Shown here one piece after another: positions 5,819 through 21,600 of a DNA stretch of 64,000 bases (within the stretch, counting starts at the first letter, position 1; each line of letters begins with the position of its first letter). The translations under genes and the position numbers were made by a program. The notes below the pieces were generated by a model. It had not been told where the DNA came from and made no database searches. It saw only the letters and a list, made by a program, of their open reading frames with translations. The stretch is from Streptantibioticus parmotrematis. GTDB taxonomy: Bacteria > Actinomycetota > Actinomycetes > Streptomycetales > Streptomycetaceae. Location of the stretch: contig NZ_JAINVZ010000015.1 in assembly GCF_019890615.1 (NCBI RefSeq), positions 1 to 64,000 of the forward strand, read 5' to 3'.

Positions 5819-5830
5819 CCCCCAGTCTTC

Positions 5831-5862: not shown

Positions 5863-5872
5863 GGAGCCCTCC

Positions 5873-5906: not shown

Positions 5907-5923
5907 GATTTTAGGAGCAACGC

Positions 5924-6226
5924 ATGCGCGACATCTCACGTCAAGTTAAGCAACTGCGCGATATCGCGCGGGCACTAGAAGAGCAGCAGGCGTTGACCGA
6001 GGATCCGCTCTCTGTACATCCGGAAACCCAGGGGCTGCTTAATTCACGCCACACGAAACGAGGTCAGTTCAACTACGCCGTCCCAATCGATCTCGCCCTT
6101 CAGCGTCGGGTTCGCCAGTACCACGCAGATCATGAAGTACCTCACGGCGACATTGTCGCCATGGCCCTCGATGCCTGGCTGCGGGCCAAAGGGTATCCGC
6201 CACCCAAAAGGACTTCGACTAAGTGA
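5924..6226 (+). CDS. Small ribbon-helix-helix-type DNA-binding protein
   Basis: A 100-aa protein. Residues about 59-91 (LQRRVRQYHADHEVPHGDIV, then AMALDAWLRAKGY) closely match the C-terminus of the ParB-type protein at 5204-5818, with the shared pattern hxxRVxxY-x-D-x-x-V-PxGDIV-x-hALDxWL-x-x-x-GY. The upstream half is charged and helical. TTAGGAGC gives a clear ribosome site 9 nt before ATG 5924, directly after the four 8-bp repeats. It therefore probably binds those repeats, either repressing its own operon or competing with the larger paralogue. The stop overlaps the HNH gene start (GTGA at 6223-6226). Confidence 0.75.
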   Translation: MRDISRQVKQLRDIARALEEQQALTEDPLSVHPETQGLLNSRHTKRGQFNYAVPIDLALQRRVRQYHADHEVPHGDIVAMALDAWLRAKGYPPPKRTSTK

Positions 6227-6870
6227 CAAGCCATCGCAACCCCGGCGAATTCAACTTCACACCCTCTCAGTTTGAGCAACTGCCCTTAGACTGGGGAATC
6301 GCGGAAAGAATGGAACAGTTATCAATTCTCGGGCCGCCTCAACCAGTCCGAGTCAGTTCGGCGCTATGGGAGGTCTGGACCCAGGATAGCAGCGTCATCG
6401 AACGCTTCGAATCCAAACGTTACCGGCGGCGGGATAACCAGTGCTGGCCATGGCTGGGGGCTGTGAGTTCAACCGGCCATGGCTCATTCCGTGCTACTAG
6501 CCTTCCTGGCCACGGGAGACGAGGTACGGTGCCCGCCCACCTCTACGCCTTTCAGTTGGCCAACGGCCCTATAGCGAAATTCGGTTGGTCCAGGACCGAC
6601 GACCTAGAAGTCTGTCATAAGTGCGACTCTCACGGCTGCACTAACCCCGCCCACCTGCGCCTGGGCTCGTCATCCGAGAACCGAACCGAATGGGCCTCTC
6701 GGCGAGGCGATCCGAACGGACCTCTTGCTGACATCCGAGGTCCTGCCGGGCGGACCCGTGCGATCGCTGAAGCAGTTCGCTACGGACTTAAGCACCATGA
6801 ATCACGGGAGTTGATCGACGCACGCATTCGCACAGCAGAGCTTGCCGGGCTCCCCTGGACCTTATGGTAA
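6223..6870 (+). CDS. HNH endonuclease-like protein
   Basis: A 215-aa protein. Near residues 128-150 it carries CHKCDSHGCTNPAHLRLGSS, the second half of a zinc-binding HNH motif (C-x2-C-x4-C-x-N-P-x-H-L). This form is common in homing-type HNH nucleases of phages and plasmids. Upstream, CWPWLGAVSSTGHGSF, then a basic stretch and AHLYAFQLANGPIA, resembles the N-terminal half of the same domain, with AHLYAF placing a candidate first His. The start is GTG 6223, overlapping the RHH gene stop by GTGA, so it belongs to the RHH operon. It may be a free-standing homing endonuclease or a restriction-like nuclease. Confidence 0.8.
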   Translation: MTSHRNPGEFNFTPSQFEQLPLDWGIAERMEQLSILGPPQPVRVSSALWEVWTQDSSVIERFESKRYRRRDNQCWPWLGAVSSTGHGSFRATSLPGHGRRGTVPAHLYAFQLANGPIAKFGWSRTDDLEVCHKCDSHGCTNPAHLRLGSSSENRTEWASRRGDPNGPLADIRGPAGRTRAIAEAVRYGLKHHESRELIDARIRTAELAGLPWTLW

Positions 6871-6918
6871 TGCCACGGGATGATGATTTCTGGCGGCTCT
6901 TCCCTCCGAACAACCGCC

Positions 6919-6928
6919 CGTTATAACG
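6919..6928. promoter_or_regulatory. 10-bp perfect palindrome upstream of the helicase gene
   Basis: CGTTATAACG, AT-rich in its centre, lies 65 bp before the helicase start, in the 123-bp gap after the HNH gene. It may be an operator or part of a promoter. The evidence is its symmetry alone. Confidence 0.25.
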
Positions 6929-6993
6929 TCTGATTTGGTCTAGCTGTCCGCCATCGCTTGCCTGGAAGACCTGTTCCCTGAGTAAAGGAGAAA

Positions 6994-8703
6994 ATGAACG
7001 TGTCCGATTCTAGTAATCCCTCCCCGCAGTCAGTTCCACCATCTCGTTCGGCAGCAGTTCTCCGGGGCGACATAAAGCTCACGGTCGAGCAGCAGGTCAT
7101 CCTCGACACCTGCTCGACCGGGCAGAACGTGGTGATTGAGGCAGGCGCGGGCACCGGAAAGACCAGCACGCTGAAGATGGCGGCCGCGGTGATGCACGGC
7201 CGCGGACTTTACATGGCGTTCAACCGGGCCATCGCTGGCGACGCTGCGGCCAGCTTCCCCGGGCACGTCACCTGCAAGACAGCCCACTCCTTAGCGTTCG
7301 CCGCGGTGGGCCGCACCTACAGGCGCGACGGGCGGCTCGGCGGGCCCCGGCAGCGCGCCGAGGACGTTGCGCAGATCCTCGGCATCCGAGAACCGCTCGC
7401 CCTTGCCTCCGGGAGCTTCCTGACCACCGCGCAGGTCGCGCGGCTGGCCCTGGGCATGGTCAGGAGGTTCACCTTCTCCGCGGATGACGGACTCACCCCT
7501 CACCACATGGTCAAGGTCCACCTGCCGGGCGAGGACGAGAAGGCCGCGCAAGCCGGACTGGCCGAAGCGCTGTTGCCCTACGCCCGGCGGGCCTGGGAGG
7601 ACATCACCTCTCCCCATGGACGCTTGAAGGTCGAGCACGACCACTACCTGAAGATCTGGGCCTTGACCCGCCCGTCCCTGCGCGCCGACTTCGTCTACCT
7701 GGACGAGGCACAGGACTCCAACCCGGTCGTCGCCCGGCTGGTGCGGGAGCAGTCCGCGCAGGTCATCGTGGTGGGCGACAGCAACCAGGCGATCTACGGG
7801 TGGCGCGGCGCGGTGGACGCGCTCGCTGACTGGCCCGCCCAGCGGCGGCTGCGGCTCACCCAGTCATGGCGCTTCGGCCGCATGGTCGCCGACGAGGCCA
7901 ACAAGTGGCTGACCGTGCTTCGATCCGACCTGCAGCTCACGGGCGCCCCCTCACTCGACACTGCCGTCGCGCCGCTGGAGCTTCGAGACGTCGATGTCGT
8001 GCTGTGCCGCACCAACGCCGAGGCCTTCCGCCAGGGCATGGAGGCACTCGCCGCTGACCACCGTCCCGGCCTGATCGGCGGCACTACGGACATCGCCACC
8101 ATGGCCCGGGCCGCGCTCGACCTGCAGAACGGCAAGCGCACCGGCCACCCCGAACTTCTCGCGTTCGAGAGCTGGGCCCAGGTCAAGGACTACGTCGAAC
8201 ACGACGACGCCGGCGCCGATCTGGCCGTCTTCGTCCGCCTGGTCGACACCTACGGAGCCCAGAGCCTGATCAACACCACCGAGCAGTTCGTCGAACCGGA
8301 CAAGGCCGACCTGGTCATCTCCACCGCTCACCGGGCGAAGGGGCGTGAGTGGAACCACGTGCGCATCGCCGGCGACTTCCGCGAGCCCACGTGCGACCCG
8401 AAGACCGGCGCACTCGGCACCATTCAGCGCCAAGAGGCCATGCTCGCCTACGTCGCCGTCACCCGGGCCCGCACCTGCCTGGATCGCCACGGCCTCGCCT
8501 GGGTCGACCCCTACGTCGGCAGCCCGTCACAAGGCTCCGTAGCGCCGTTCCATCGGACACTCGACATGCTCAAGAACCTCTACTCCGCGAAGTGCCACAC
8601 CTGCGGCAATTGGGTTCCTCGCGACCGTGGACGCGTCCGCAAGAACGGCCGCTCTTGGGTCACCTACTGTCAGTCCTGCGTGAACGCCGGATCGGCGTCC
8701 TGA
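6994..8703 (+). CDS. UvrD/Rep-like superfamily 1 helicase with C-terminal zinc finger
   Basis: A 569-aa DNA helicase. Walker A EAGAGTGKTS lies near residues 48-58, followed by YMAFNRAIAGDAA (motif Ia), TAHSLAF, the DEAQ box YLDEAQDSNP near 235, VVGDSNQAIYGWRG (motif III), LTQSWRFG (motif IV), VISTAHRAKGREW (motif V) and AYVAVTRAR (motif VI). The last 40 residues add CHTCG...CQSC, a likely zinc ribbon. The ribosome site AAAGGAG precedes ATG 6994. It is clearly related to the helicase segment inside the giant protein at 48990-64000 and shares stretches such as FVRLVD and STAH-K/R-AKGREW. A role in plasmid replication, transfer or repair is inferred. Confidence 0.93.
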   Translation: MNVSDSSNPSPQSVPPSRSAAVLRGDIKLTVEQQVILDTCSTGQNVVIEAGAGTGKTSTLKMAAAVMHGRGLYMAFNRAIAGDAAASFPGHVTCKTAHSLAFAAVGRTYRRDGRLGGPRQRAEDVAQILGIREPLALASGSFLTTAQVARLALGMVRRFTFSADDGLTPHHMVKVHLPGEDEKAAQAGLAEALLPYARRAWEDITSPHGRLKVEHDHYLKIWALTRPSLRADFVYLDEAQDSNPVVARLVREQSAQVIVVGDSNQAIYGWRGAVDALADWPAQRRLRLTQSWRFGRMVADEANKWLTVLRSDLQLTGAPSLDTAVAPLELRDVDVVLCRTNAEAFRQGMEALAADHRPGLIGGTTDIATMARAALDLQNGKRTGHPELLAFESWAQVKDYVEHDDAGADLAVFVRLVDTYGAQSLINTTEQFVEPDKADLVISTAHRAKGREWNHVRIAGDFREPTCDPKTGALGTIQRQEAMLAYVAVTRARTCLDRHGLAWVDPYVGSPSQGSVAPFHRTLDMLKNLYSAKCHTCGNWVPRDRGRVRKNGRSWVTYCQSCVNAGSAS

Positions 8704-8898
8704 CCCCACCGTACACACCACGCCGACGTCGGTGGTGTGGGTTCGGGGTGCTGGCAGGCGGCGGCGGGCGGCGGGGGTGGGGCCGCTGCGCGGCCCCTGG
8801 GTTGGTTGTGGTGGGGGTGGGTTGTTGGGTGCGGGTGGCCCCTCCCGGCGCGAGATTGTGAGGGGGTGCGGCGGACTGCGCGCAAGGTCGTCCCGGGG

Positions 8899-8933
8899 CC
8901 TTTTTCGCCGCTCCTTCGTCGCGGTGAAAAAGG
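8899..8933 (+). terminator. Hairpin in direct repeat 1
   Basis: CCTTTTTCGCCGC (8899-8911) pairs with GCGGTGAAAAAGG (8921-8933), with one G-T wobble, around loop TCCTTCGTC. The A/T runs at the stem base make it terminator-like in both directions. The same hairpin recurs at 14423-14457 in repeat 2. Confidence 0.55.
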
Positions 8934-9153
8934 TCCCGCTCCTCCCCTGCGCTTCGTCCGGCACCCCCTCAAAATCTCTTTTTGCCGGGAGGGGGCGGGG
9001 GGGGGACCCTCCCGGCTCGGCTGGTCGGGCGGCCGGGGCAGCCGGCCGGGCGCGGCCCGGTGGTGGGAAGGGGCACGCAGCGAGGTGGTGAGCACGAGCA
9101 CCCCGAGCAGGCCCGGGGCGAGTAATTCCTTGTGATTGATGGGGATTTGGGGG

Positions 9154-9189
9154 TTGACCTCCCCCGCCCCACACGGGTAGATTTACCTA
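9154..9189 (+). promoter_or_regulatory. Sigma-70-like promoter (copy A), possibly leaderless
   Basis: TTGACC at 9154-9159, an 18-bp spacer and TAGATT at 9178-9183 form a good housekeeping promoter. An ATG begins 6 nt after the -10 box, at 9189. Transcription could therefore start at or within 2 nt of it, producing a leaderless upstream ORF (MSTRGRASPPTPTT...) that overlaps the 9250 gene out of frame. The promoter is duplicated at 14678-14713. The -10 box and ATG spacing recur at 15810-15821. Confidence 0.65.
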
Positions 9190-9198
9190 TGTCAACAC

Positions 9199-9215
9199 GG
9201 GGCAGGGCAAGCCCC
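9199..9215 (+). ncRNA. Leader hairpin with AGGGCAA loop (copy A)
   Basis: GGGGC (9199-9203) pairs with GCCCC (9211-9215) around the 7-nt loop AGGGCAA. It lies about 10 nt inside the predicted transcript and 35 nt before the start codon of the 9250 gene. CACCCACCACC follows. Hairpins with the same loop but different stem sequences occur upstream of five other genes here. The role is unknown, possibly a protein- or ligand-binding leader. Confidence 0.55.
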
Positions 9216-9249
9216 CCGACACCCACCACCGACCGCGAGGAGACAGTTC

Positions 9250-10122
9250 ATGGAACTCGTTCCCATCTCCCAGCTGGGCGCAGAACTGCGCGCCCAGGCC
9301 CAACTGGACGTCCGAGTCACCGAGGGCGAACGGCAGTTGGTGATCGTCCTGCCGAGCAGCCTGGACCAGCTGTGGATCACGCCCGGCCATTCCAGCGGGC
9401 GGCCCCGGCTCTTCTGGCGGCGGCGCACCTTCCTCGGGACCGCGACCGACGAGTCCGGCTACCTGGACTGGACCGCCGACCCGGCCCCGCTGATCCACTT
9501 CGTCTTCAACTACGCCTACTCGCCTAGCCAAATCGCGCCCCAGTACCAGCGCGTCCTCGACGCCTTGCACGGACGAGGTCTCGACGCGAAGCTGGCGCAT
9601 GCCAAGGGGGGCGGCTTCCAGATCCGCATCGGGCTGCCGGACCTAACGTACCTGCTGATCGGCACCGGCAAGTCCCTTGCTCCCCGGCTGGAGCAAGTAC
9701 AGGGCTGGCACGTCGAGCACCACGGTCCCGAGGAGCACATCGCCGTCGTGTACGACTCGATGCCGCACAACCGCCCCCAGGGCGCGAGCCTCGGCGGCCC
9801 CCACGTTGACGTGATGGCCGATCACGTCGCCCGGTACGTCGCCAGCGTCATGGCCCGTTACGGAGGTCGTCACCCGCTCGGCGCGCCCGTCCGTCTCCAA
9901 CAGGACGCCACCGCCCCCGGCACCGTCGCATGGCTGCTTGAAGAACTGGTCCAACTCCCTTGCCATCAAGGCGAGTTGGACAACGACGGCGGCGCGCTGA
10001 TCACCATCGCGCGGCGTGACGGCAGCGATCCGGCAACGGTCGACGTCCCGGCCGTCGTCGTCAACCGGATCAGCGCCCTGCTGCTGTCCGAGGTCACCAA
10101 CTGCCAGATCTACGGCGGGTAG
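9250..10122 (+). CDS. Uncharacterised protein, first gene of the methyltransferase module
   Basis: A 290-aa soluble-looking protein without recognised motifs, signal peptide or membrane segments. The N-terminal third is rich in beta-strand-like and aromatic stretches (LDQLWITPGH, LFWRRRTFLG). The middle reads like an alpha/beta domain (YQRVLDALHGRGLDAKLAHA, then GGFQIRIGLPDLTYLLIGTG). The C-terminal half is helical and could be a separate dimerisation domain. CGAGGAGA lies about 8 nt before ATG 9250. It is preceded by the copy A promoter and leader hairpin and followed by a 13-bp AGGGCAA hairpin before the methyltransferase gene. Function unknown; co-location suggests an accessory role in the module. 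Confidence 0.75.
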   Translation: MELVPISQLGAELRAQAQLDVRVTEGERQLVIVLPSSLDQLWITPGHSSGRPRLFWRRRTFLGTATDESGYLDWTADPAPLIHFVFNYAYSPSQIAPQYQRVLDALHGRGLDAKLAHAKGGGFQIRIGLPDLTYLLIGTGKSLAPRLEQVQGWHVEHHGPEEHIAVVYDSMPHNRPQGASLGGPHVDVMADHVARYVASVMARYGGRHPLGAPVRLQQDATAPGTVAWLLEELVQLPCHQGELDNDGGALITIARRDGSDPATVDVPAVVVNRISALLLSEVTNCQIYGG

Positions 10123-10151
10123 CAGCTCCCGCCCCTACTGGCCGCTCCACC

Positions 10152-10184
10152 GTGCTGGGTCCGGAGGGCAACCGGACCCAGCAC
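10152..10184 (+). ncRNA. Leader hairpin with AGGGCAA loop (methyltransferase gene)
   Basis: A perfect 13-bp stem, GTGCTGGGTCCGG (10152-10164) with CCGGACCCAGCAC (10172-10184), closes exactly the 7-nt loop AGGGCAA. It lies in the 101-bp gap before the methyltransferase. The stem sequence is unrelated to copy A while the loop is identical, which indicates an RNA structure rather than a conserved DNA box. CTCCACCACC follows 9 nt later. Confidence 0.65.
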
Positions 10185-10223
10185 GCCGATCCCTCCACCA
10201 CCGAACGGTTGCAAGGACGGACC

Positions 10224-11621
10224 TTGAGTATCACCTTCACTGACATCTTCTGCGGCGCCGGTGGCGCCAGCACCGGCCTGGTCAAAGCGGGTTGGGAACT
10301 GAGATTGGCTGCCAACCACTGGCAGACCGCGATCGATACGCATTCGGCGAACCACCGCCAGGCCGAGCACGTGTGCGCCGACGTCTCGAACTACGACATG
10401 CGGCGCCTGCCGCGCACTGACGTGCTGTGGGCCAGCCCTATATGCACCGAAATCTCCCCTGCTGGGGGCCGCCGCCGCAGCAAGAAGGCCAGCGGGCTGA
10501 CCGAGGAGGAGCTGCGCTCGTTACCCGACGCCGCGTTCGAGCGGACCCGCGCGACCGCCTACGACGTCATCCGCGCGGTTGAAGTACACCGGTACAAGGC
10601 GGTGCTCATCGAGAACGTCACCGAGTTCGCCACCGACTGGATCCTGTTCGACTGGTGGCTGAGCGGCATGGTCAAACTGGGTTACAACTACCAGATCGTC
10701 TGCGTCAGCTCCGCGCACATCGGCGGCGAGCTCAACCCGGCCGCCCCACAGTGGCGGGACCGCCTCTACATCGTCTTCACCTGGGTCGGCATGCGCCTAC
10801 CCGACGTCACCCCGCGGCCCCCGGCCCGGTGCGAAGAGTGTGACGAGGACGTGTACGCGCAGCAGACCTGGCGCCCCGGCCACGCAGAGACTCGCATCGG
10901 CAAATACGGCCAGCAGTACGACTACACGTGCCCGAACCACGACACCGCCGTGATCGTCGAGCCCTACATCCGGCCCGCCTCCGACATCATCGACTGGACG
11001 AACCTGGGCACTCGGATCGGGGACCGCAGGCGCCCCCTGGCACCCACGACCATGGACCGCATCGCGGCCGGTCTGGAGATGTTCCCCGACGATCCCTCGG
11101 TCGTCACCATCAACCACGGCGGGCACGACGGCCGCGCCTTCCGCCCCGACCTCACCCCCCTGCCGTCGCGCACCGTCAAGATCGGCGAAGGGCTCGTCGT
11201 CCCGCCCGGCGCCTGCCCGCACGACAGCACGGCGGACCTGGCCGCCCCGCCCTTCATCGTCGAGTTCCGCAACCACGCCACCGCTGAGCGCGTGGACCGG
11301 CCTCTGGCCACCGTCACCGCGGGCGGCAACCACCACGGCCTGGTGATCCCCTTCCGGAAGGGCTCGACCCCGAAAGTGACCAGCGAGCCGCTGCACACCC
11401 TGTCCACCCGCGACTCCGCTGGTCTGCTACGCCCGGCGGTGAAGATCGAGGACTGCCACTTCCGGATGCTCCAGTGGCGCGAGCAGATGAGCGCCCAGCG
11501 CTTCCCCGAGACCTACATCGTCAAGGGCCGTAGCAAGGCCGAGCGGACCATGCAGGCCGGAAACGCCGTCAGCTGCAACGTCCCACAGTGGCTGGGCCAT
11601 GCCGTCAGCGCCGTCCTGTAG
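10224..11621 (+). CDS. DNA (cytosine-5) methyltransferase, orphan
   Basis: A 465-aa C5-cytosine methyltransferase transferring a methyl group from S-adenosylmethionine to DNA. Motif I is TDIFCGAGGASTG at residues 6-18. Motif IV is SPICTEISPAG near 71-81, with Cys in place but Ile instead of the usual Pro-Cys-Gln context. Motif VI has ENVTEF near 130, motif VIII PQWRDRLYIVF near 175, and motif X AGNAVSCNV near the C-terminus. The start is chosen at TTG 10224, preceded by AAGGA and giving LSITFTDIFCGAGG. Further upstream the frame runs through the hairpin. No restriction endonuclease is recognised beside it, so it is an orphan, of a type frequent on actinophages and plasmids (self-protection or regulation). 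Confidence 0.9.
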   Translation: MSITFTDIFCGAGGASTGLVKAGWELRLAANHWQTAIDTHSANHRQAEHVCADVSNYDMRRLPRTDVLWASPICTEISPAGGRRRSKKASGLTEEELRSLPDAAFERTRATAYDVIRAVEVHRYKAVLIENVTEFATDWILFDWWLSGMVKLGYNYQIVCVSSAHIGGELNPAAPQWRDRLYIVFTWVGMRLPDVTPRPPARCEECDEDVYAQQTWRPGHAETRIGKYGQQYDYTCPNHDTAVIVEPYIRPASDIIDWTNLGTRIGDRRRPLAPTTMDRIAAGLEMFPDDPSVVTINHGGHDGRAFRPDLTPLPSRTVKIGEGLVVPPGACPHDSTADLAAPPFIVEFRNHATAERVDRPLATVTAGGNHHGLVIPFRKGSTPKVTSEPLHTLSTRDSAGLLRPAVKIEDCHFRMLQWREQMSAQRFPETYIVKGRSKAERTMQAGNAVSCNVPQWLGHAVSAVL

Positions 11622-11631
11622 CCATCCTTCC

Positions 11632-11659
11632 GGGCCGCCCTGTCGAGGCGGGGCGGCCC
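11632..11659 (+). terminator. 9-bp GC hairpin after the methyltransferase gene
   Basis: GGGCCGCCC (11632-11640) pairs perfectly with GGGCGGCCC (11651-11659) around a 10-nt loop. It begins 11 nt after the methyltransferase stop and may terminate or attenuate transcription into the next gene. Confidence 0.5.
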
Positions 11660-11687
11660 CTGACCCGCTCCGAGGAGATGACCTCTC

Positions 11688-12122
11688 GTGCGAGCGTTCC
11701 ACCCCCGCCACCCGCCGAAGACGGCCACCGCCGCCGCCATCCGCACCCACCTCGAATCGAAGGGCTGGACTCTGGCCACCGTCGGCGGCCGCGAGTGCCG
11801 GCTCAACGAGGCTCCCGAGTCCGGCCACTTCACCGTCCAGGACGAAGATCACGACGGTACCCCGGCCGTGATCCTGATCTGCTTCACCGACGAATACGTC
11901 TACGACCTCTACAGCATGGTCGAGCAGCTGAAGGAAGCCGGATATGCCAGCGAGAGTCTGCCGTTCGCCGACGCGAGGCTCATCCGCGTCGCGACCAGTC
12001 AGGAGATCGCCGACCGCGCGGTCCACCAGACCCGGCGCGTCGCGTCGGTCCTCGCCGCGATCCTCCCGGAGCGGCCCAGGCAGCCTAACGAGCTGCCGCC
12101 GCTGCCCGACGCCCTGTTCTGA
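11688..12122 (+). CDS. Uncharacterised 144-aa protein
   Basis: A small soluble protein with a compact alpha/beta look. TAAAIRTHLESKGWTLATVG suggests a helix then strand. VILICFTDEYVYDLYSMVEQ and LPFADARLIRVAT follow, then a helix and a proline-rich tail. No catalytic motif is recognised. The start is GTG 11688, with GAGGAG about 10 nt upstream. It lies 66 bp after the methyltransferase and 94 bp before the next gene in the same direction, and it is the one gene of the module without an AGGGCAA-type leader. Function unknown. Confidence 0.65.
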   Translation: MRAFHPRHPPKTATAAAIRTHLESKGWTLATVGGRECRLNEAPESGHFTVQDEDHDGTPAVILICFTDEYVYDLYSMVEQLKEAGYASESLPFADARLIRVATSQEIADRAVHQTRRVASVLAAILPERPRQPNELPPLPDALF

Positions 12123-12140
12123 CCATCACGACTCCAGCCG

Positions 12141-12169
12141 CGCTCGCAGGGAGGGCAACCCCGCGGGCG
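12141..12169 (+). ncRNA. Leader hairpin with AGGGCAA loop (12217 gene)
   Basis: An 11-position stem pairs CGCTCGCAGGG (12141-12151) with CCCCGCGGGCG (12159-12169) around exactly AGGGCAA. Nine pairs are Watson-Crick, one is a wobble and one is an A-C mismatch. The stem differs from the other copies, so pairing is maintained while the sequence is not. CCCACCACT lies 30 nt downstream, before the AAGGAG ribosome site. Confidence 0.6.
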
Positions 12170-12216
12170 AATGCCACCGAGCCGGCTGGTCCCACCACTA
12201 CACGAAGGAGAACCTT

Positions 12217-13086
12217 GTGACCCCGTTCAGCACGGGCGTGCGACGCATCGTGGGCAGCCTCACCGCTGACACCTTGCGCATGATGACTGGCATCGAAACC
12301 GCGTGCCAACGCCGCGCCGTCCGTTCCTTGCGCGCCGCCCTGGCGGACCGCGCAGCCACAGCCATCGTCACGGCAGACCTCATTCACACCGAGCTGCGCT
12401 GGTACGAGCCGACCGGAGTGAGGGGCATGGCCCTGATCATTCGTATGGAGGGGCGCACCAACGTCGATCTGTGGTTTACCGGCCTTGGGGCTGAACCCGC
12501 CGAAGCTCTGCTGCGCGCTGGCGAAGGTAGGGACAACGATCTGACCATCAACGATGGAGAGCTGGTGCTTGTCCTCGGCAACCACTCCGTCGCCGAGGCC
12601 ACCGAGCTTCTCTCCGCGTACGTCCGCGCCACCACACCCACTCGCGTCGATGTCGCCCGTGCTGCCCATGGCTCCACCCAACACGAGCTCATCGCGGCCC
12701 TTGAGGAGGAGCTGATCCGGCGCGCCACCGCCTACTACCCCGGGGCCGCCTGGTTGGTCGTGGATTCCGCGCGTTGGTCCGAGACCTGGGGCGAGTCGGA
12801 GGTCGAGCTGCGAGCGGTGATCGACGCCGACGGCAAGGTTCTGCACGAGCACCAGGACTGCCAGGAGGGCGGTAGGCACCCGGACGGTAGCCGCCACACC
12901 GAGTGGGGTTGCGTCGTCGACCGCCTGCTGACGGAACTCGCTGATCTGGACGGAATCGGCGGTTGGCCGGAGGCGTGCCGGACCACTCAGTGGTGCGAGC
13001 TGCGCGCCGTGCCGCTGACACCCGAGGCCGCTACGAAGGACTGCCGTTACCCGCACGACGGACACGAGGAGTGGGACGAGGTGTAA
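12217..13086 (+). CDS. Uncharacterised 289-aa protein
   Basis: GTG 12217 is chosen because AAGGAG stands 8 nt upstream; the open frame extends further 5' only as noise. The protein begins with a helical stretch (TADTLRMMTGIETACQRRAV). A strand-rich segment follows (MALIIRMEGRTNVDLWFTGL), then an acidic, mixed C-terminal domain with scattered His and Cys (HEHQDCQEGGRHPDGSRHTE, and ATKDCRYPHDGHEEWDEV). A zinc site is conceivable but no known motif fits. No signal peptide or membrane helix. Fourth gene of the repeat-bounded module; function unknown. Confidence 0.7.
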   Translation: MTPFSTGVRRIVGSLTADTLRMMTGIETACQRRAVRSLRAALADRAATAIVTADLIHTELRWYEPTGVRGMALIIRMEGRTNVDLWFTGLGAEPAEALLRAGEGRDNDLTINDGELVLVLGNHSVAEATELLSAYVRATTPTRVDVARAAHGSTQHELIAALEEELIRRATAYYPGAAWLVVDSARWSETWGESEVELRAVIDADGKVLHEHQDCQEGGRHPDGSRHTEWGCVVDRLLTELADLDGIGGWPEACRTTQWCELRAVPLTPEAATKDCRYPHDGHEEWDEV

Positions 13087-13228
13087 TCGGCACGCCTTGG
13101 GGGGTGGGCCCGCGTCGGGCTCATCCCCGCCACGACCCGCGCCGCCTTCGCTGACCACCACGGCCCGGATGAACGAAAAGCGGGTCGGCGGTTACGAGCC
13201 GAAGCTCGTACCAGCCCCGCCGAAGCGT

Positions 13229-13249
13229 GCTGGCTCGGGCAAAACCGCC
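13229..13249 (+). ncRNA. Weak leader hairpin with CGGGCAA loop (13344 gene)
   Basis: The loop variant CGGGCAA (13236-13242) is flanked by GCTGGCT and AACCGCC, of which about five of seven positions can pair. CTTCTCCACCACC follows, as in the better copies. The sequence pattern fits the family, but the stem is poor. It lies about 100 nt before the start codon. No gene is seen in the rest of 13087-13343. Confidence 0.3.
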
Positions 13250-13343
13250 GACCCTTCTCCACCACCAACGACGAGGCCGCAACAGGACTCCCGCTGGCAG
13301 TCTCCATCAGTGTACGGCGGGAATACGGCAGGATGGCACCACG

Positions 13344-14222
13344 ATGACTACGACGAGAGAGCAGTTCGAGCAGCGGCTCGCCGCGCTGCGCGACCCCTGG
13401 GTAACCCGCAGACAGTTGGAGCACCTCGCCGGCGTCACCCCGAAGACGATCCGCAACTGGCTCCAGGTCCATCCCGTCCCCGAGGGGAAGACCCAGACCG
13501 GCCCTCGCAGCACCCAACTCATCGACAAGCAGACAGCGGTCGAGTGGGCGCGCGCGCGACTCTTCGGCGACAAGGAAGGGATCTCAGAAACGCCGTCCGG
13601 CCCGCGGTTGGCGGCCGAACGACGCCCCATGACGCACGCTCCCGGTGAACGGTGGCGCCGTGTCGACATCGCCCGGCTTCGCGGCGTGACCTCCGGGGCC
13701 ATCGGCAACCTGGCCCAGACGTACGCGGATCACCCGAGTCACCCCTTCCCACCCGCCGAAGAGGACCGCACCCGGGACGCAGCCGCCGTCGCCGCCTGGT
13801 TCGCCTGGTACGACGCCGAGCGCCCCGGTTACAGCGGGAAGCGGGCAGTTCCCGCGGACACCGCGCGAGCACTGGTTGGGAGGGTCGCCGAGGTTGCCGA
13901 ACTGCTGCGAACCGCCGTCAGCGAGGGCGCTGATCTGACCACCAAGAGCGTCGCGGCACGATTGGAGGTGTCACCCGACGTCGCCGCCCGCTACCTGTCG
14001 CAGGCAGCCGAGGTGGTGATGCCTGATCACGGACTGATCGCGCGCAGGCACATTCCCGAGCTGTTCCCGGCCACCGTGCGCGACCAGATGACCCCACTCC
14101 AGCAGCGCGAGCGCGTCAAAACACTGTTGCGGCGCCGCACAGCGCCGGAACCCGTCCTTGTCGTCGGTGGCACGGAGTACTTCTGGCGCCAAGAGGTGGA
14201 GACTCTGGTGACGTCGGCCTGA
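13344..14222 (+). CDS. HTH-containing protein of unknown function
   Basis: A 292-aa soluble protein. Residues about 18-48 (VTRRQLEHLAGVTPKTIRNW) form a MerR-like or excisionase-like HTH. Near residue 100, RWRRVDIARLRGVTSGAIGN looks like a second HTH, and near 198 LTTKSVAARLEVSPDVAARY a third. Three DNA-binding units spread over one chain suggest a regulator or DNA-organising protein. ATG 13344 has AGGA 10 nt upstream. It is the last gene before direct repeat 2, so it closes the repeat-bounded module and is a candidate regulator of it (inference from position). Confidence 0.7.
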   Translation: MTTTREQFEQRLAALRDPWVTRRQLEHLAGVTPKTIRNWLQVHPVPEGKTQTGPRSTQLIDKQTAVEWARARLFGDKEGISETPSGPRLAAERRPMTHAPGERWRRVDIARLRGVTSGAIGNLAQTYADHPSHPFPPAEEDRTRDAAAVAAWFAWYDAERPGYSGKRAVPADTARALVGRVAEVAELLRTAVSEGADLTTKSVAARLEVSPDVAARYLSQAAEVVMPDHGLIARRHIPELFPATVRDQMTPLQQRERVKTLLRRRTAPEPVLVVGGTEYFWRQEVETLVTSA

Positions 14223-14677
14223 AGGTGAGTTGTGCCGTTGTCGCTCCGGGTGTCGGTGGTGTGGGTTCGGGGTGCTGGCAGGCGGCGGCGGGCGGCGGGG
14301 GTGGGGCCGCTGCGCGGCCCCTGGGTTGGTTGTGGTGGGGGTGGGTTGTTGGGTGCGGGTGGCCCCTCCCGGCGCGAGATTGTGAGGGGGTGCGGCGGAC
14401 TGCGCGCAAGGTCGTCCCGGGGCCTTTTTCGCCGCTCCTTCGTCGCGGTGAAAAAGGTCCCGCTCCTCCCCTGCGCTTCGTCCGGCACCCCCTCAAAATC
14501 TCTTTTTGCCGGGAGGGGGCGGGGGGGGGACCCTCCCGGCTCGGCTGGTCGGGCGGCCGGGGCAGCCGGCCGGGCGCGGCCCGGTGGTGGGAAGGGGCAC
14601 GCAGCGAGGTGGTGAGCACGAGCACCCCGAGCAGGCCCGGGGCGAGTAATTCCTTGTGATTGATGGGGATTTGGGGG

Positions 14678-14713
14678 TTGACCTCCCCCGCCCCACACGG
14701 GTAGATTTACCTA
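14678..14713 (+). promoter_or_regulatory. Sigma-70-like promoter (copy B)
   Basis: TTGACC at 14678-14683 and TAGATT at 14702-14707 with an 18-bp spacer, identical to copy A. The ATG at 14713 sits 6 nt after the -10 box. Here it is in frame with the 14800 gene, so a leaderless transcript could give that protein a 29-residue N-terminal extension. Confidence 0.65.
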
Positions 14714-14722
14714 TGTCAACAC

Positions 14723-14739
14723 GGGGCAGGGCAAGCCCC
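14723..14739 (+). ncRNA. Leader hairpin with AGGGCAA loop (copy B)
   Basis: Identical to copy A at 9199-9215 because it lies inside the direct repeat. It precedes the 14800 gene by about 60 nt. Confidence 0.5.
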
Positions 14740-14799
14740 CCGACACCCACCACCAATCGGGTGCGAAAAGCGCTCGACAAGTCAGGAAAGGGGATGCGC

Positions 14800-15600
14800 A
14801 TGACCACAATGGAGGCGGTTCTGGTCTCCGCCGACGGCGAGCACGCCCACGAGGCAGTGGTCGACAAGTCCAACCGCTGGAACGGCTGGTTGTCTCCGCG
14901 CTTCACACTGGAGACCGTCAAGCAGATAGCTGTGGACTGCCAGACGTGGATCGAGAGGTTTGGACGAGCCGACCAAGACGAGATCAGGGTTATCGAGGCC
15001 CCGGAGCTGTCGGAGACGTCCGAGGAAGGTGAGAGCCGCAAGGCCGCCATCGTCCTTCACATTCACTGGGCGTACATCCACACCGACGGCCCCGCCACCT
15101 GTGCAACCGTCGTCGAGCCCGGCGAGGACGGCCGGTATGCCATCGGCGCGTGGGAGTGGACCTGGGCGGAGATCTCGCCCAACATCAGCGAACGCGGCCA
15201 GTACTTGTTCGACTTCTACGCCGCTGCGTTGCGCGAGGCGGTGTGGTTCGAGGCGCAGCCCACACCCGAAGGTACCGATGGCGCTCCAGGTCGGGAGTGG
15301 GAGGAGGTCGAGGCCCTGAACCTCGACGTCAACAGCATCATCCTAAGCCAGCGGGAAGCGTTCATGGCGGTGTGCACATCGTTCGTCTCGGACAACGCCG
15401 AGATGTTGAACGAGATCCCGGCCGAACGAGCCGGAGGCGCGTTCTGGATGTCGGCGCGCGGCGGCGACGGCATCCCGGCACGGTCGCTCCTCGCGCTGCC
15501 AGACGTAGCCAAGGAGTCGCGCGAGCGCCTGCACAACTCGGCAGGCGGGCACCGGTTCGGCACCGTCCACCTTGACGGCACCACAGTGAGCTTCACCTGA
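14800..15600 (+). CDS. Uncharacterised 266-aa protein
   Basis: ATG 14800 is preferred because AGGAAAGGGG ends 6 nt upstream. ATG 14794 and the in-frame leaderless ATG 14713 are alternatives. The protein is acidic and soluble, with an N-terminal alpha/beta region (MEAVLVSADGEHAHEAVVDK) and a central stretch rich in Trp and Glu (YAIGAWEWTWAEISPNIS). A helical middle (YLFDFYAAALREAVWFEAQP) and a C-terminal part ending in a strand-like FGTVHLDGTTVSFT complete it. No known domain is recognised. It is the first gene after direct repeat 2 and is driven by a promoter-leader cassette identical to that of the 9250 gene, so the two are probably co-regulated. Confidence 0.7.
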   Translation: MTTMEAVLVSADGEHAHEAVVDKSNRWNGWLSPRFTLETVKQIAVDCQTWIERFGRADQDEIRVIEAPELSETSEEGESRKAAIVLHIHWAYIHTDGPATCATVVEPGEDGRYAIGAWEWTWAEISPNISERGQYLFDFYAAALREAVWFEAQPTPEGTDGAPGREWEEVEALNLDVNSIILSQREAFMAVCTSFVSDNAEMLNEIPAERAGGAFWMSARGGDGIPARSLLALPDVAKESRERLHNSAGGHRFGTVHLDGTTVSFT

Positions 15601-15809
15601 CCATGTCCGCGCGCCAGATCGCTCCGGCGACGACGGCGCAGCCATCGAAGCCCTGGCACCAAACCGTTCGCGCGGTACGAGAACTTGTGGCTGCACACAC
15701 CGGGCCAGGACCACGCCGATGCTGCCCGAGCGCACCCGTGCCGCCTGTCTAGCCCTAGCCGAACCTCTCAACCCACCGCAAAGAAAGGTGATTCCCCGCC
15801 TACCAAAGA

Positions 15810-15847
15810 TAGATTTCCCTATGTCGCGATGGGGTTGGGCAAGCCCC
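15810..15847 (+). promoter_or_regulatory. Diverged promoter-leader cassette (copy C)
   Basis: TAGATT at 15810-15815 is followed after five bases by ATG at 15821, the same layout as copies A and B. A leader hairpin follows: GGGGT (15831-15835), loop TGGGCAA (15836-15842), then GCCCC (15843-15847). The -35 region is poor. The upstream ORF has 28 codons (MSRWGWASPPDTPPPGRN...) and overlaps the 15885 gene out of frame. It shares the MS-x-x-G-x-ASPP pattern with copies A and B. The rest of 15601-15809 shows nothing. Confidence 0.5.
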
Positions 15848-15884
15848 CCCGACACTCCACCACCCGGAAGGAATCCCACAGACG

Positions 15885-16199
15885 ATGGCGTACGGCAAAT
15901 CGATTGATCTGGACGAAAGCACGCACATCTTGCCGGTCTTCGACCCGGTGCTCCGCACCTTCTCCGTGCAACTGTGGAAGGGCAGCCAACCGGCCGGAAT
16001 TCACGGCCTGGTCGAGAACTTCAGCCACCCCGACGACGTTCTTGACACGATTGATGAGTTCTTGGAGCGATCGGGCGTCCGGGCGCTCACCGAGGACGAG
16101 ATCGGCAAGCTCGGCGGCGAGCTGATCAGGAGCAAGGGCGGTCCCGACGCCGCCATCCTGGAACTCGCGCTGAAGCACCCTCAGCTCTTCTTCTGGTAA
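15885..16199 (+). CDS. Uncharacterised 104-aa protein
   Basis: A small acidic protein. The first 60 residues look like a beta-rich region with a helix (HILPVFDPVLRTFSVQLWKG, then DDVLDTIDEFLERSGVRAL). The end is helical (AAILELALKHPQLFFW). GGAAGGA lies about 13 nt before ATG 15885 and a leader cassette of the copy C type precedes it. No domain is recognised and no membrane segment is seen. It lies between two other unknown genes with related leaders, so it is probably part of the same regulon. Confidence 0.65.
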   Translation: MAYGKSIDLDESTHILPVFDPVLRTFSVQLWKGSQPAGIHGLVENFSHPDDVLDTIDEFLERSGVRALTEDEIGKLGGELIRSKGGPDAAILELALKHPQLFFW

Positions 16200-16268
16200 T
16201 TCACACCGGCCGGGGCCGCGCACCTCAGCGCCGCCCCGGCCCTCCATCAGAACCCAAGACGCCCCCGA

Positions 16269-16286
16269 GGGGCAGGGCAACACCCC
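16269..16286 (+). ncRNA. Leader hairpin with AGGGCAA motif (16342 gene)
   Basis: GGGG (16269-16272) and CCCC (16283-16286) can pair around a 10-nt loop containing AGGGCAA (16274-16280). CCACCAACACC follows. There is no TAGATT promoter here. The stem is short, so the call rests on the shared loop and position. Confidence 0.35.
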
Positions 16287-16341
16287 CGACGCGGGCTCGG
16301 CCACCAACACCGCCGTGACTTGACGCTGAAAGGAGACAGGC

Positions 16342-17301
16342 GTGACCACTTACCACGTCAGCTGGACCAACGAGGACATCGACGCCGAAGACCCGCTGAG
16401 CGCGGCGCGGGAAGCCTGGGACATGCTGCGCGACCCCGAAGCCTTCCCGCCCGTCTTCGAGGTCGGTGCCGGGAGCACCGTGGTCGAGGTAGACCTGCTG
16501 GATGACGCGATTCGACCGGCCAGCAGTCACGCCGCCAACGACCTCGGTGCAGGTCTGATCATTGGGGCCTACCTGGCCACCTACCCGTACCCGCTCCCCG
16601 ACCTGGACACCACCACTGCCCGCGTCGTACGAGCCGACCAAGTCCGTCAAGGTGACGTGCTCCTGAGCGCCTTCAAGTTGAATGACCGGCAGCTCGGCCA
16701 CGCGACGTTGAAGGCCCACATCCCCCGATACGCCGACCCCTCGCCCGCGTGCGGCACGTGCAGCCCCGACTGCGCCGCGTTCGCCCTCCACGCGCAGCAC
16801 GGGGAATGCCCCGCGCTACACATGACCGCCATCGGCCGCGAGGTCACCGACCCCGAGGAGTGCGACGATGAGCCTTTCCACCTCAACGACTTCGCCGACA
16901 CGCTCTACTTGATAGTCCCGCACTCGACGAGAGCCCTCGAAACGGCGGGTCGCGTACTGCGCGCTGCACTGGCCGAACGTAACGTCACCGTGCACGAAGG
17001 TACGGGACCGTACTACGCGATCCCACTGGACCCGGCCACCCCGGCGCAGGAGGTCTACCATCGTGCGCACCTGTCGGTGGCCGATCGCAATACGTCCACC
17101 GAGCACGACTCACCCGCCCACACCGGCTGGACGGTGTTCCTGCGCGACGACAACGGTGAGTCGGTCGGCGAGCCGCTCTACATCGCCGGGGACGGTGAAG
17201 TGATCGACTGTACAGTCGAGTCCGCGGCCGCCGCAGCGTTCATCGCCGGCTGGCTCACCGCGCATCAACGGCCGAGCAGCGCTTCCAACACCCAGGATTG
17301 A
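16342..17301 (+). CDS. Uncharacterised 319-aa protein with a Cys cluster
   Basis: GTG 16342 is preceded by AAAGGAG. A short N-terminal alpha/beta unit (TYHVSWTNEDIDAEDPLSAA, then AREAWDMLRD) leads into a region with Thr/Val-rich strands. Around residues 135-160 the Cys-rich segment ACGTCSPDCAAFALHAQHGE, then CPAL, suggests a structural zinc site. Downstream, SVADRNTSTEHDSPAHTGWT and a strand-rich end follow. The first segment resembles the short domain found repeatedly in plasmid and ICE proteins of unknown function. It ends at a near-palindromic sequence, and a strong 16-bp hairpin lies 26 nt after the stop. Confidence 0.7.
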   Translation: MTTYHVSWTNEDIDAEDPLSAAREAWDMLRDPEAFPPVFEVGAGSTVVEVDLLDDAIRPASSHAANDLGAGLIIGAYLATYPYPLPDLDTTTARVVRADQVRQGDVLLSAFKLNDRQLGHATLKAHIPRYADPSPACGTCSPDCAAFALHAQHGECPALHMTAIGREVTDPEECDDEPFHLNDFADTLYLIVPHSTRALETAGRVLRAALAERNVTVHEGTGPYYAIPLDPATPAQEVYHRAHLSVADRNTSTEHDSPAHTGWTVFLRDDNGESVGEPLYIAGDGEVIDCTVESAAAAAFIAGWLTAHQRPSSASNTQD

Positions 17302-17327
17302 TCAACTAGTTGGTCATGTCCGCACCC

Positions 17328-17362
17328 GGCCCCCGGTCGCGCTGCCAGCGCGACCGGGGGCC
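17328..17362 (+). terminator. 16-bp perfect hairpin terminator
   Basis: The arms 17328-17343 and 17347-17362 are fully complementary around the 3-nt loop GCC. The stem is almost entirely G and C, directly downstream of the 16342 gene, and probably ends the operon. Confidence 0.75.
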
Positions 17363-17468
17363 CGCTTCCGTGCTGTCGTGCTAAGCGCCGCGCTCTGCCA
17401 CCGTGCGAGGTACCGTCGCCCATGACCACCGCGCGCAGCAACACGGCGCCCGAGGGAAAGGGGATCCC

Positions 17469-17837
17469 ATGACGCGTAGCGGGATAGGGATAACGGAGAT
17501 GTCGATCGAGGATCTCGACCTCGACTGGATCGGCATGACGATCGAAGTGGACACCCCGGACGGCAGCAAGGTCGGGTTCCGCCTTGCGCGCTACGAGAAG
17601 ACCACCCGCGACAGCGAGCCGCTGTGGGTCCTCTTCAGCGCCGATCAGCCATGGCGAACTGAGCTGACGGCAGGCGCCAAGGTTCGATGGGTGCACCGGC
17701 CGATCGATCCTGGTCGGCCTGCGGGGCAGCACTTCTCCCCGCATCCGAACCCGGTAACAGCTCCTCAGGCCGGGCCCGTGTCGGCCCCACTTAGCCCGGC
17801 ATCCTGGGTTACACCCCCGGTGCCCGGAACCCGGTAA
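17469..17837 (+). CDS. Uncharacterised 122-aa protein
   Basis: ATG 17469 is preceded by GGGAAAGGGG. The first 75 residues look like a small beta domain (LDWIGMTIEVDTPDGSKVGF, then RLARYEKTTRDSEPLWVLFS), possibly an SH3-like or OB-like fold by appearance only. The proline-rich C-terminal third (PHPNPVTAPQAGPVSAPLSP) is disordered. The stop codon TAA itself lies inside the second CCGGTAACAG repeat. It is last on this strand before a bidirectional hairpin and converges on the 17909 gene. Function unknown. Confidence 0.6.
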   Translation: MTRSGIGITEMSIEDLDLDWIGMTIEVDTPDGSKVGFRLARYEKTTRDSEPLWVLFSADQPWRTELTAGAKVRWVHRPIDPGRPAGQHFSPHPNPVTAPQAGPVSAPLSPASWVTPPVPGTR

Positions 17838-17880
17838 CAGACGCCAAACGCCCGCAGTCCTCGACCTGGACCGGTAACAG
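17751..17880. repeat. Three CCGGTAACAG repeats at 80- and 40-bp spacing
   Basis: Exact 10-bp copies begin at 17751, 17831 and 17871. The first two are extended to GAACCCGGTAACAG and overlap the 3' end of the 17469 gene. The third forms almost the whole loop of the hairpin at 17853-17897. Spacing in multiples of 40 bp and proximity to the candidate oriT suggest a protein-binding array. Confidence 0.5.
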
Positions 17881-17897
17881 CCAGGTCGAGGACTGCG
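17853..17897. terminator. 17-bp perfect hairpin between convergent genes
   Basis: The arms 17853-17869 and 17881-17897 are fully complementary. The 11-nt loop is A plus CCGGTAACAG. It sits between genes converging at 17837 and 17909, so it can serve as a bidirectional terminator. Confidence 0.75.
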
Positions 17898-17908
17898 GCG
17901 CGTCCGTG

Positions 17909-18352
17909 TCACCCGGAGAGGGCCGCTGCCTCCTCTGTTGAACCGGGCCGCTCGACGGCCGTCGACGTCGGCTTCGGCGTCGGGGATCCGGAGTCAGCCG
18001 GAGCACTCGCAGTGCCGTGCAACGACGCCTTGACCTCCCGGACCACAGCCTCCGCCACACCCAGCCGCTCCGCCACGGAACGCACGCCTGAGAGCACCAG
18101 CATCTCACCCATGACGTCGCTCATCTGCTCCCGCAGCTTCCCGTTCTCCTTCTCCACCTCCCCGCGAACCTTCTCGGTGTACTTTCTGATCTTCTCGTCG
18201 GCCGCGGACGCTTTATCAGCTATCGCATCTTCCGCCTCGAACCAGGTGGTCGCCAGGTCTTCTAGTCGCTGCTCGCGTTGGCGACGTTCCACCGTCCGGG
18301 CCCGAGCCTTGTCCCTCGCCTTGAGCTGGCGAGTGGTCCTCCGCTCTGCCAT
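17909..18352 (-). CDS. Coiled-coil protein divergent from the relaxase gene
   Basis: A 147-aa protein from ATG at 18352, chosen because GGGAGGG stands 5 nt upstream. An ATG at 18400 without a good ribosome site would add 16 residues. The N-terminal part is highly basic (RTTRQLKARDKARARTVERR). A long charged helix follows (KIRKYTEKVRGEVEKENGKL), clearly coiled-coil-like. Then comes VRSVAERLGVAEAVVREVKA, a possible HTH, and a Pro/Ser/Thr tail. It is divergent from traA, with the candidate oriT between them. That is the usual place of relaxosome accessory or MobC-like proteins, so an oriT-binding role is plausible but not shown. Confidence 0.65.
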   Translation of the reverse strand: MAERRTTRQLKARDKARARTVERRQREQRLEDLATTWFEAEDAIADKASAADEKIRKYTEKVRGEVEKENGKLREQMSDVMGEMLVLSGVRSVAERLGVAEAVVREVKASLHGTASAPADSGSPTPKPTSTAVERPGSTEEAAALSG

Positions 18353-18684: not shown

Positions 18685-21600
18685 ATGATGACCATCCACA
18701 AGCTCAGCGCTGGGGATGGTTACCTGTACTACACGCGCGAAATCGCCACCGGCGACGAACGCCGGTCGGGCAAGCGTGAACTGAGCGATTACTACACCGC
18801 CGAGGGCAATCCGCCCGGCGTCTGGATCGGCGGCGGGACTGCTGAGCTGGGCGTTCGAGGCACCGTCACCGAGGCTCAGATGAAGGCCTTGTACGGTGAG
18901 GGACTGCATCCGGACGCCGACCGGATCCTCGCCGAGGCCGTGGCCGAAGGGCTCAGCCCGGCCGCCGCGATCCGACGGGCCAGGCTGGGCCGGCGGTACT
19001 ACCAGTACGAGCAAACCAAGGGCCCGCTCGCCGCCCGGATTCAGGACGCGATCCAGGACTTCGAGACGCGCGAGGGACGCGAAGCGACTGATGCCGAGCG
19101 CAAGCGCATACGCGGGCGTATCGGCGCGATGGCCTTCCGCGAGGACTTCGGCCGGGCCCCGAAGGACGCTGAAGAACTCAGCCGCTACATCAGCGCGAAC
19201 ACCTCCTGCGACCGCCAGGCGGTCGCAGGCTACGACCTGGTCTTCCGCAACAAGTACGGCTCGGTTCTATGGGCGCTGGGCGATGAGCACACCCGTGTGG
19301 AGGTGCAGGCCGCCCACGAGCAGGCCATCGCCGAAACCCTAGCGTGGATCGAGGAGAATGCCCTGGCGACCCGCACCGGCATCAACGGAATTGCGCAGGA
19401 GGACGTGCGCGGCGGACTGATAGCCGCTCGTTACCGGCACTACGACAGCCGCCGCGGCGACCCGCTGCTGCACGACCACGTCGTGGTCGCCAACAAGGTC
19501 CGTGGCGTGGACGGGAAGTGGCGCTCCATCGACGGAAAGCTGCTGTACGCGATGGGAGTTGCGGCCAGCGAGCTGTACAACCAGCGCGTCGTCGAGGAGC
19601 TGTGCCGCCGGCTCGGTGTGCAGGCCGAGGAGCGGGAGGTCACTCCGGGCAAGCGGCCCGTGATGGCCATCAGTGGCTTGGACGACGACCTGATCGAGGC
19701 GTTCTCCAAGCGGGCCCAGGACATTCGCAAGGACCTGGACAAGCTGCTGCAGGAGTACCGGAGCCGGTATGGCAAGGAGCCGGACACCGGCGCCCGCATG
19801 GCGCTCATCCAGCAGGCCGCACAGATGTCCCGGCCGCACAAGAAGAAAGCCCGTGCCCTGTCCGATCTGCGCGCTGCCTGGCGCGAGGAAGCCATCGGCT
19901 TGTTCGGCGTCGCCCGGATCGACGGCCTGCTGGACCACCTGCGCGCCATCGCCCGCGGCGCGGTGACGGAGGAGGATCCGGCCGCCGCGGTCGACATCGA
20001 GCAGGCCACGCGGGACGTGCTGCAGGTGGTCTCCTCCGAGCGGGCGGTGTGGGGTGAGCGGCACGTGCTCGCCGAGGCCCGGCGGCACGTGGTCCGCCTG
20101 ACCCAGGGCCGCGGTGACACCCGCGGGCTGGCCGAGCGGATCACCCGGCAGGCGATCGACCACGGCTCGATCGACCTGACTCCCCCCGACCTTCACCGGC
20201 CGTTCGCGCCGCTGCAGCGCGCCGACGGCAGCAGCATCTACCGGCGCCGAGAGGCGCAGCTCTACACCTCCAGCGAGGTCCTGGCGGCCGAGTCGCGGAT
20301 CCTGAACGCGGCGCGCACCTCGGTCATCCCGGCGCTGGGCGCCGACCGCTTCGCCGCGGTTGCCGAGCGGTTCGACGGGCCCCCGCTCGACCCTGGCCAG
20401 CGGCGGCTGGCCCAGGCGTTTGCCTGCTCGGACAAGCTGGTCGTCGTCGGTATCGGCCCGGCCGGCTCCGGCAAGACCACCGCCCTGCAGTTGGTGCGCG
20501 ACGCCATCGCCGCCGGTGGCGGCCGCCTCATACCCCTGGCCCCCTCCAGCCGGGCGGCGAAGGTCATGGAGGACGACCTGGGCGCCGTCGCCCACACGAT
20601 GCACAGCTGGATCGCCCAGCGCGACCGGCTCGCCGAGGGACGGCGGGTCAAGGACGCCTTCCAACTCCGCCCGGGCGACGTCATCATCGTCGACGAGGCG
20701 GGCATGGCCGGAACCCGCAACCTCGCCGGGATCGTCGCCGAGGCCGAAGCGGCCGGCGCTCTGGTCCGCCTGATCGGCGACCCCGCGCAGCTCGGCGCGG
20801 TGGAGTCCGGCGGCGCCCTGCGGTTGGTGGCCCGCGAGGTCGGCGCGGTCGAACTGGAGCAGTTGCACCGCTTCCGCACCGACGGGGAAGCCGAAGCCAC
20901 CTTGGCCCTGCGCGACGGCGATCCTGCCGACGCGTGGACCTGGCATCTCGCCCAGGATCGGATCGTTGGCGGCGGCCCGCAGGAGATGCTGGACTCGGTC
21001 TTCGCCGCCTGGCAGACCGACACCGAGGCTGGCCTGCACTCGCTGATGATGGCCGACGACACCGATGCTGTGCGCGAACTCAACCTGCGCGCCCAGGCGT
21101 TCCAGATCGCCTCCGGACGCCTGGACCTGGCCCACTCCACCGCCCTGCGCGACGAGATGCAGGCGGCTGTCGGCGACCTCATCGTCACTCGAAGGAACCG
21201 GCGCCGTCTGATCGTCAACGCAGGCTTGGACTTCGTCAAGAATGGCGACCAGTGGTGCATCGAAGCCCTCGACGCTGCGGGCAACGCCACCGTCCGCCGC
21301 ACCGGCCACGGCGGCCGCGTCGTCCTCCCGGCCTTCTACCTGCGACGGCACGCCGAACTCGGCTACGCCTCCACCGTGCACCGCGCGCAGGGCCTGACGG
21401 TGGCGACCGCACACGGCCTGATCACCGCCCGTACGAGCCGCGAGTCCGCTTACGTCATGGCCACCCGCGCCCGCCTGTCGAACCGGCTGTACGTGGTCGC
21501 CGACGAGGGCCAGAGCATGCACGACGTGCTGGACGCCGTGGCGCGTAGCAGTCGCGGATCGGTCTCCGCGCACGAGACCATCCGGGCCGAGCAGCACCGC

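Follow-up and report, generated by a model that had tools for sequence, protein, structure and literature searches.

Leader hairpins of the module

The first 64,000 nucleotides (nt) of contig NZ_JAINVZ010000015.1 from Streptantibioticus parmotrematis, the stretch analysed here as the window, carry at 8704-17301 a gene module in which intergenic leaders contain a family of small hairpins with GGGCAA in the loop. This hexamer occurs seven times at 8704-17301, always on the + strand and always between genes (intergenic fraction 0.24, p = 4.6e-5), and the same count finds none on the - strand. Downstream of every copy come, in the same order, an AC-rich tract with CCACCA, the ribosome site and the start codon. 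By itself GGGCAA is hardly enriched across the window (45 copies versus 34 expected); coupled to CCACCA 5-35 nt downstream it is found 8 times versus 0.26 expected, and 7 of these 8 lie at 8704-17301. Six of the seven sites are hairpins with a seven-base loop, one of them imperfect, and the seventh is a three-way junction.

All of the features described here lie on the + strand. Hairpin 1 (9199-9215), GGGGC-AGGGCAA-GCCCC, is in the leader of the gene for a 290-residue protein without a known domain (9250-10122) and has a counterpart at 8983 in L046, a related locus; additional outer pairing is possible between TGTC at 9190-9193 and GACA at 9218-9221, and the AC-rich element CCCACCACC (9222-9230) separates the hairpin from the ribosome site. 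The leader of a C-5 cytosine DNA methyltransferase gene (10224-11621, PF00145) contains hairpin 2 (10151-10185), with the loop AGGGCAA at 10165-10171, a perfect stem of 14 base pairs (bp) rather than the 13 counted in the initial annotation, and the AC-rich element CCACCACC (10195-10202). Hairpin 3 (12141-12169), with an 11-position stem and its AGGGCAA loop at 12152-12158, belongs to the leader of a gene for a 289-residue protein without a known domain (12217-13086). Hairpin 4 (14723-14739) has the same sequence as hairpin 1, lies in a direct repeat of about 500 nt and leads a gene that starts at 14794 or 14800 and encodes a 266-residue acidic protein (14800-15600). Hairpin 5 (15831-15847), GGGGT-TGGGCAA-GCCCC, is in the leader of the gene for a 104-residue acidic protein with a predicted beta-beta-beta-alpha fold (15885-16199), and hairpin 6 (16269-16286), in which GGGG and CCCC flank CAGGGCAACA, precedes the gene of a 319-residue acidic protein (16342-17301). 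Five of these six hairpins score well with a covariance model, and when the complete 7.4-Mb genome is searched with it, five of the six matches at E = 1 or below fall within this module. The sixth hairpin, at 16269-16286, is degenerate and poorly formed in the window; its counterpart at L046 17168 is better formed. Directly downstream of the module is a gene for a MobF relaxase (18685-23457), which assigns the module to a conjugative element.

A predicted promoter-like sequence, TTGACC-18-TAGATT, is found at 9154-9183 and copied at 14678-14707, and these sequences would place transcript starts at about 9190 and 14714, just before hairpins 1 and 4. A TAGATTT box at 15810 is likewise upstream of the hairpin 5 leader (15822). 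None of the seven sites gives a terminator-like call when intrinsic terminators (a GC hairpin plus a T run) are sought. Folding energy by itself would not prove the window copies, since it is clearly better than that of shuffled sequences in two of the seven leaders (10130-10223, z -2.6; 13176-13300, z -3.1) and not in the other five; the proof is comparative.

The repeat that holds hairpins 1 and 4 consists of about 500 nt of non-coding DNA in nearly perfect duplicate (8720-9230 and 14244-14754). Folded as single-stranded DNA (8720-9215), it gives z -3.7 with a long hairpin around GGCCTTTTTCGCCGC, and it is a candidate single-strand promoter or origin. The leader of the gene at 11688 (11615-11688) contains a GC-rich hairpin without a GGGCAA loop, perhaps a decayed copy.

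Conservation and covariation in related elements

A methyltransferase search yielded 80 loci, and AGGGCAA hairpins are present in seven of them, from Streptomyces and Streptacidiphilus (L046, L047, L048, L049, L063, L086 and L096). In these loci the hairpins precede the methyltransferase gene and other genes, with up to eleven per locus including a junction before a helix-turn-helix (HTH) protein gene, and all curated copies in AGGGCAA elements are on the coding strand. Across 49 hand-listed copies from eight Streptomyces and Streptacidiphilus elements the loop is kept while the stem is re-paired, and four scrambled control motifs give far fewer hairpins than AGGGCAA does. The initial annotation, whose hairpin coordinates and loops were largely borne out in a system that proves larger than it described, had proposed a cis-regulatory RNA regulon, and had named beforehand what would refute it, including a lack of further copies upstream of homologous genes and a lack of significant covariation. 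Such copies are present in other elements, and the covariation is strong: among 23 hairpins all 12 of 12 pairs are changed on both sides, with a score of 0.507 versus 0.156 +/- 0.024 for shuffled and at most 0.181 for slid alignments. In a strict ortholog comparison of the methyltransferase leader (eight elements), 7 of 14 pairs are changed on both sides, with 93.8% paired. This combination of a fixed loop with compensating stems is comparative evidence in favour of the proposed regulon, and the RNA structure of the leaders is well supported.

An alternative is that the hairpins are generic 5' or intercistronic stabilisers and ribosome stand-by structures that act without a trans factor, their loops being alike through the copying of leader cassettes. 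A GC-rich hairpin, set apart from the ribosome site by an unstructured AC-rich spacer, could plausibly serve for stabilisation or stand-by, and the duplicate at 8720-9230 and 14244-14754 is a recent copy. AGGGCAA is, however, conserved across species despite unrelated stems and downstream genes, and a pure stabiliser would require no fixed 7-nt loop and no recurrence of its core in a three-way junction, so this explanation is considered unlikely.

In 38 class A leaders, that of the HTH gene excluded, which precede many unrelated genes, the distance from loop to start codon has a median of 48 nt and a range of 38-74. Strand, position, the constant distance to the start codons of unrelated genes, and the occurrence of sites both at predicted transcript starts and within operons favour an effect on the mRNA that is exerted on each cistron separately. 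The sites might instead work as folded single-stranded DNA during conjugation, in priming, recombination or as a single-strand promoter, and the adjoining MobF relaxase, the confinement of the hairpins to one strand and the presence of a methyltransferase gene in the module, as in plasmid leading regions (PMC11541004), would all fit such a role. Against it stand the fixed distance to the start codons of many unrelated genes with a ribosome site always downstream, and the placement of promoter-like boxes upstream of the hairpins rather than inside them, and action as DNA appears very improbable.

In L063 the methyltransferase leader hairpin is present as a tandem triplicate of a GGCCCGGAGGGCAACC unit (8113-8177). 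The exact promoter-plus-hairpin pattern was found in 3 of 395 family genomes, all already in the set, so that no new genome with AGGGCAA-type leaders was obtained from them. A model search of 298 genomes under strict filters returned two, a count that is not evidence of rarity since the search also missed the window's own copies. Viral contigs gave 44 pattern matches; a crude leader test left only L164, whose match looks like a chance one in AT-rich sequence.

Other loop codes

Where Streptomyces plasmids encode a related methyltransferase (L038-L043, L051, L081), the corresponding leader position is occupied by a hairpin with the loop NCGGUAU, in the form CGGUAC in L038, L051 and L081, and GACCCGUCA or a close variant lies downstream of loops of this type. 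Plasmids picked solely because they encode a relative of the HTH protein provided further loops, GCGGCAC in L177 and L178, AACGGCA in L179, L180, L182 and L183, and AGGGCAAG in L176, and whole genomes selected by that criterion (14 of 150 family genomes) contributed AACGGCA in L187, L189 and L192 and AGUGGCA in L191. Nearly all of these loops share the core SGGYA, AGUGGCA having U in place of S; L181 has CAGUA. The loop described at first as fixed is not universal, since each element type has its own loop around SGGYA. The AC-rich tract is element-type-specific as the loop is, and the ACCACC tract reported from the window is one of several such tracts; at L039 21563 and L041 21540 the stem is retained and both loop and AC-rich element are absent. 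The hairpins come in two recurring architectures: one has a short stem next to the loop and directly follows promoter-like boxes, the other has a perfect stem of 12-15 bp and lies between genes. In a crude unbiased scan SGGYA was present in 34 of 325 leader hairpins in HTH loci versus 10 of 358 elsewhere, and it is enriched in HTH loci but not exclusive to them. Loop codes differ among elements of one host genus, which makes a factor carried by the element more likely than a single factor of the host.

Seven-base loops are suited to kissing contacts. The loop and the AC-rich element might form a pseudoknot with each other or pair with a small RNA that the mobile element provides, and in classes A and B loop nucleotides 2-4 could indeed pair with a downstream CCG or CCC. 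Against this, CCG is missing downstream in class D (AACGGCA), and the spacer is nearly constant while the stem varies from 5 to 14 bp; the reverse complements of the AC-rich elements also mark no conserved second locus outside the leaders. Pairing of this kind is held to be highly doubtful. Two specific forms of it were rejected: an H-type pseudoknot between loop and AC-rich element, which fails in class D and is contradicted by a spacer that does not lengthen with the stem, and a small RNA complementary to the AC-rich element, given that reverse complements of this element are found almost only within the leaders themselves.

Two further observations concern individual loci. L177, a plasmid of S. 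europaeiscabiei, has two leader sub-regulons, AGGGCAAC with CUUCACGA and GCGGCAC with CAUCAAC, at 645-3758 and 5282-9402. The methyltransferase leaders at L044 11455 and L058 9934, from Amycolatopsis and Prauserella, have a different hairpin with a common larger loop, GCCTCACCT..CACAG.

The HTH gene and its three-way junction

The seventh GGGCAA site, taken at first for a weak hairpin at 13229-13249, is part of a three-way junction (13182-13254, z -3.05) in the leader of the HTH-protein gene. An outer 12-bp stem (13182-13193 with 13243-13254) encloses two inner hairpins, and CGGGCAA at 13236-13242 is unpaired just 5' of the 3' strand of the outer stem. This design is conserved in five other elements, and HTH genes nearly always have the junction as their leader. 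Across 13 elements pairing in the outer stem reaches 99.3%, and six of its pairs differ on both sides. The core in the junction (GGGCA, CGGUA, CGGCA or UGGCA) is that of the element's own simple hairpins in all 18 of 18 elements compared. After the junction comes CAGTGTA (13308-13314), CAGTSTA in most elements, which may be a -10 box of the gene's own or an RNA element.

The protein itself (13344-14222) is basic, has 292 residues with three HTH-like segments recognised by eye, and has relatives in all loop classes. Among 88 methyltransferase-related loci a relative is encoded in 11 of the 15 with hairpins versus 1 of the 73 others (p = 5e-10, for loci that are related and not independent), and the four hairpin loci without one are short contigs or end near the methyltransferase gene. 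Profile comparison (hhalign) indicates that the class A and class B proteins are homologous (E = 3e-7, 184 columns), and a comparison of the protein with solved structures gave only weak HTH matches. Because its gene co-occurs with the hairpins and has a special leader, the HTH protein is the best lead to the binder of the loops, and a lead only. Two other candidates were set aside. The 104-residue protein has a predicted fold (pLDDT 90) only weakly like PUR repeats (Z 5.6) and is acidic, and the 290-residue protein, found among the compared loci only in AGGGCAA elements, gave no convincing fold match (pLDDT 75); as both are limited to AGGGCAA elements they cannot serve other loop codes.

On the 34-kb contig C18 of genome G092 (L188, L201, L204, L206) the HTH gene is present six times in near-identical steps of about 6.4 kb, which may be a tandem array or may have arisen in assembly. 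In classes B, C and D a protein of about 290 residues with a weak SprT-like match is encoded 3' of the HTH gene (L039 25411, L178 9633, L182 9363 and others), and in classes C and D its gene has a leader hairpin of its own.

Relation to known systems

Hairpin loops read by a protein on change-tolerant stems are familiar from the coat-protein operators of RNA phages and from iron-responsive elements, which differ from the present leaders in having single or few targets, other loops and no AC-rich element. CsrA requires GGA, and GGA is absent from the loops AGGGCAA, NCGGUAU, GCGGCAC and AACGGCA, which are built on GGYA in element-specific codes, unlike the targets of CsrA/Rsm. No Pfam match to a CsrA-family protein was obtained among eight module genes and the helicase gene of the window and eight genes of L178, L182, L039 and L042, the part of the element genes that was scanned. 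The likeness to CsrA/RsmA regulons, including that of the plasmid-encoded RsmQ (PMC9928087), is one of design, in which one protein reads a short loop motif in unrelated hairpins near the ribosome sites of many genes. The SAS and ESAS repeats of cluster K mycobacteriophages are also gene-start repeats of one mobile element with group-specific sequences, found at the starts of many non-structural genes, specific to subclusters and suspected of a role in translation (PMC3203893). The SAS repeat is an invariable 13-bp sequence, GGGATAGGAGCCC, located at the ribosome site and absent from the leaders read here, and ESAS has conserved 17-bp arms around a variable spacer (PMC3203893), whereas in the present hairpins the arms vary and the loop is conserved. 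With the Frpo single-stranded promoters of plasmid leading regions the leaders share a folded nucleic acid near a relaxase gene, which in Frpo controls early conjugation genes; in Frpo the promoter itself is folded in DNA (PMC11541004), and here a hairpin of about 31 nt lies downstream of promoter-like boxes.

The earlier statement that no described motif fits agrees with Rfam 15, which gives no gathering match in the window and, with a permissive E, nothing convincing in 8600-18000 or in L178, L182 and L096. No account of such a motif was found by full-text searching of the open-access literature; the subscription literature lay mostly outside this search and may hold one.

Interpretation and significance

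The leader hairpins are probably RNA elements that are recognised by a factor carried on the element and that control cistrons one by one, as judged from sequence comparison. Each hairpin would be a functional part of a single cistron's mRNA leader, with a stem that serves to present the loop; the loop, AGGGCAA here and SGGYA across the family, probably together with the AC-rich stretch 5' of the ribosome site, would be read by an element-encoded factor whose binding about 48 nt 5' of the start codon sets the translation or stability of that cistron. One factor could in this way govern many unrelated genes of the element jointly, whether at transcript starts or inside operons, and the three-way junction with the same loop code before the HTH gene would fit feedback on the system's own regulator. 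Recognition in trans, translational action and feedback are the parts of this scheme that we infer.

Several points weigh against it. A number of window leaders fold no better than shuffled sequences, and hairpins of the promoter type have a short stem, with 4-6 bp next to the loop. The SGGYA and other loop cores were partly recognised by eye across classes and counted afterwards, in elements that are related to one another, so that the counts are not independent. L038, L051 and L073 have an HTH relative and no recognisable junction before its gene, and L176 is not clear. L177 has both AGGGCAA and GCGGCAC hairpins and a single HTH relative within the 40 kb that were read, and the HTH protein alone therefore cannot explain both codes.

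A bolder and rather doubtful extension is that element-encoded regulators, perhaps the triple-HTH protein, have evolved distinct loop codes (GGGCA, CGGUA, CGGCA, UGGCA), such that every conjugative element in a host would have a post-transcriptional regulon to itself, including a three-way junction for autoregulation. If the recognition proposed here is correct, an RNA-level regulon extends across Streptomyces plasmids and integrated elements in many natural variants of one code, and these variants would show which residue of the binding protein sees which base of the loop. Actinobacterial conjugative elements would then coordinate a methyltransferase and genes without assigned function after transcription, and the leaders could provide Streptomyces, in which such tools are scarce, with a set of possibly orthogonal translational switches.

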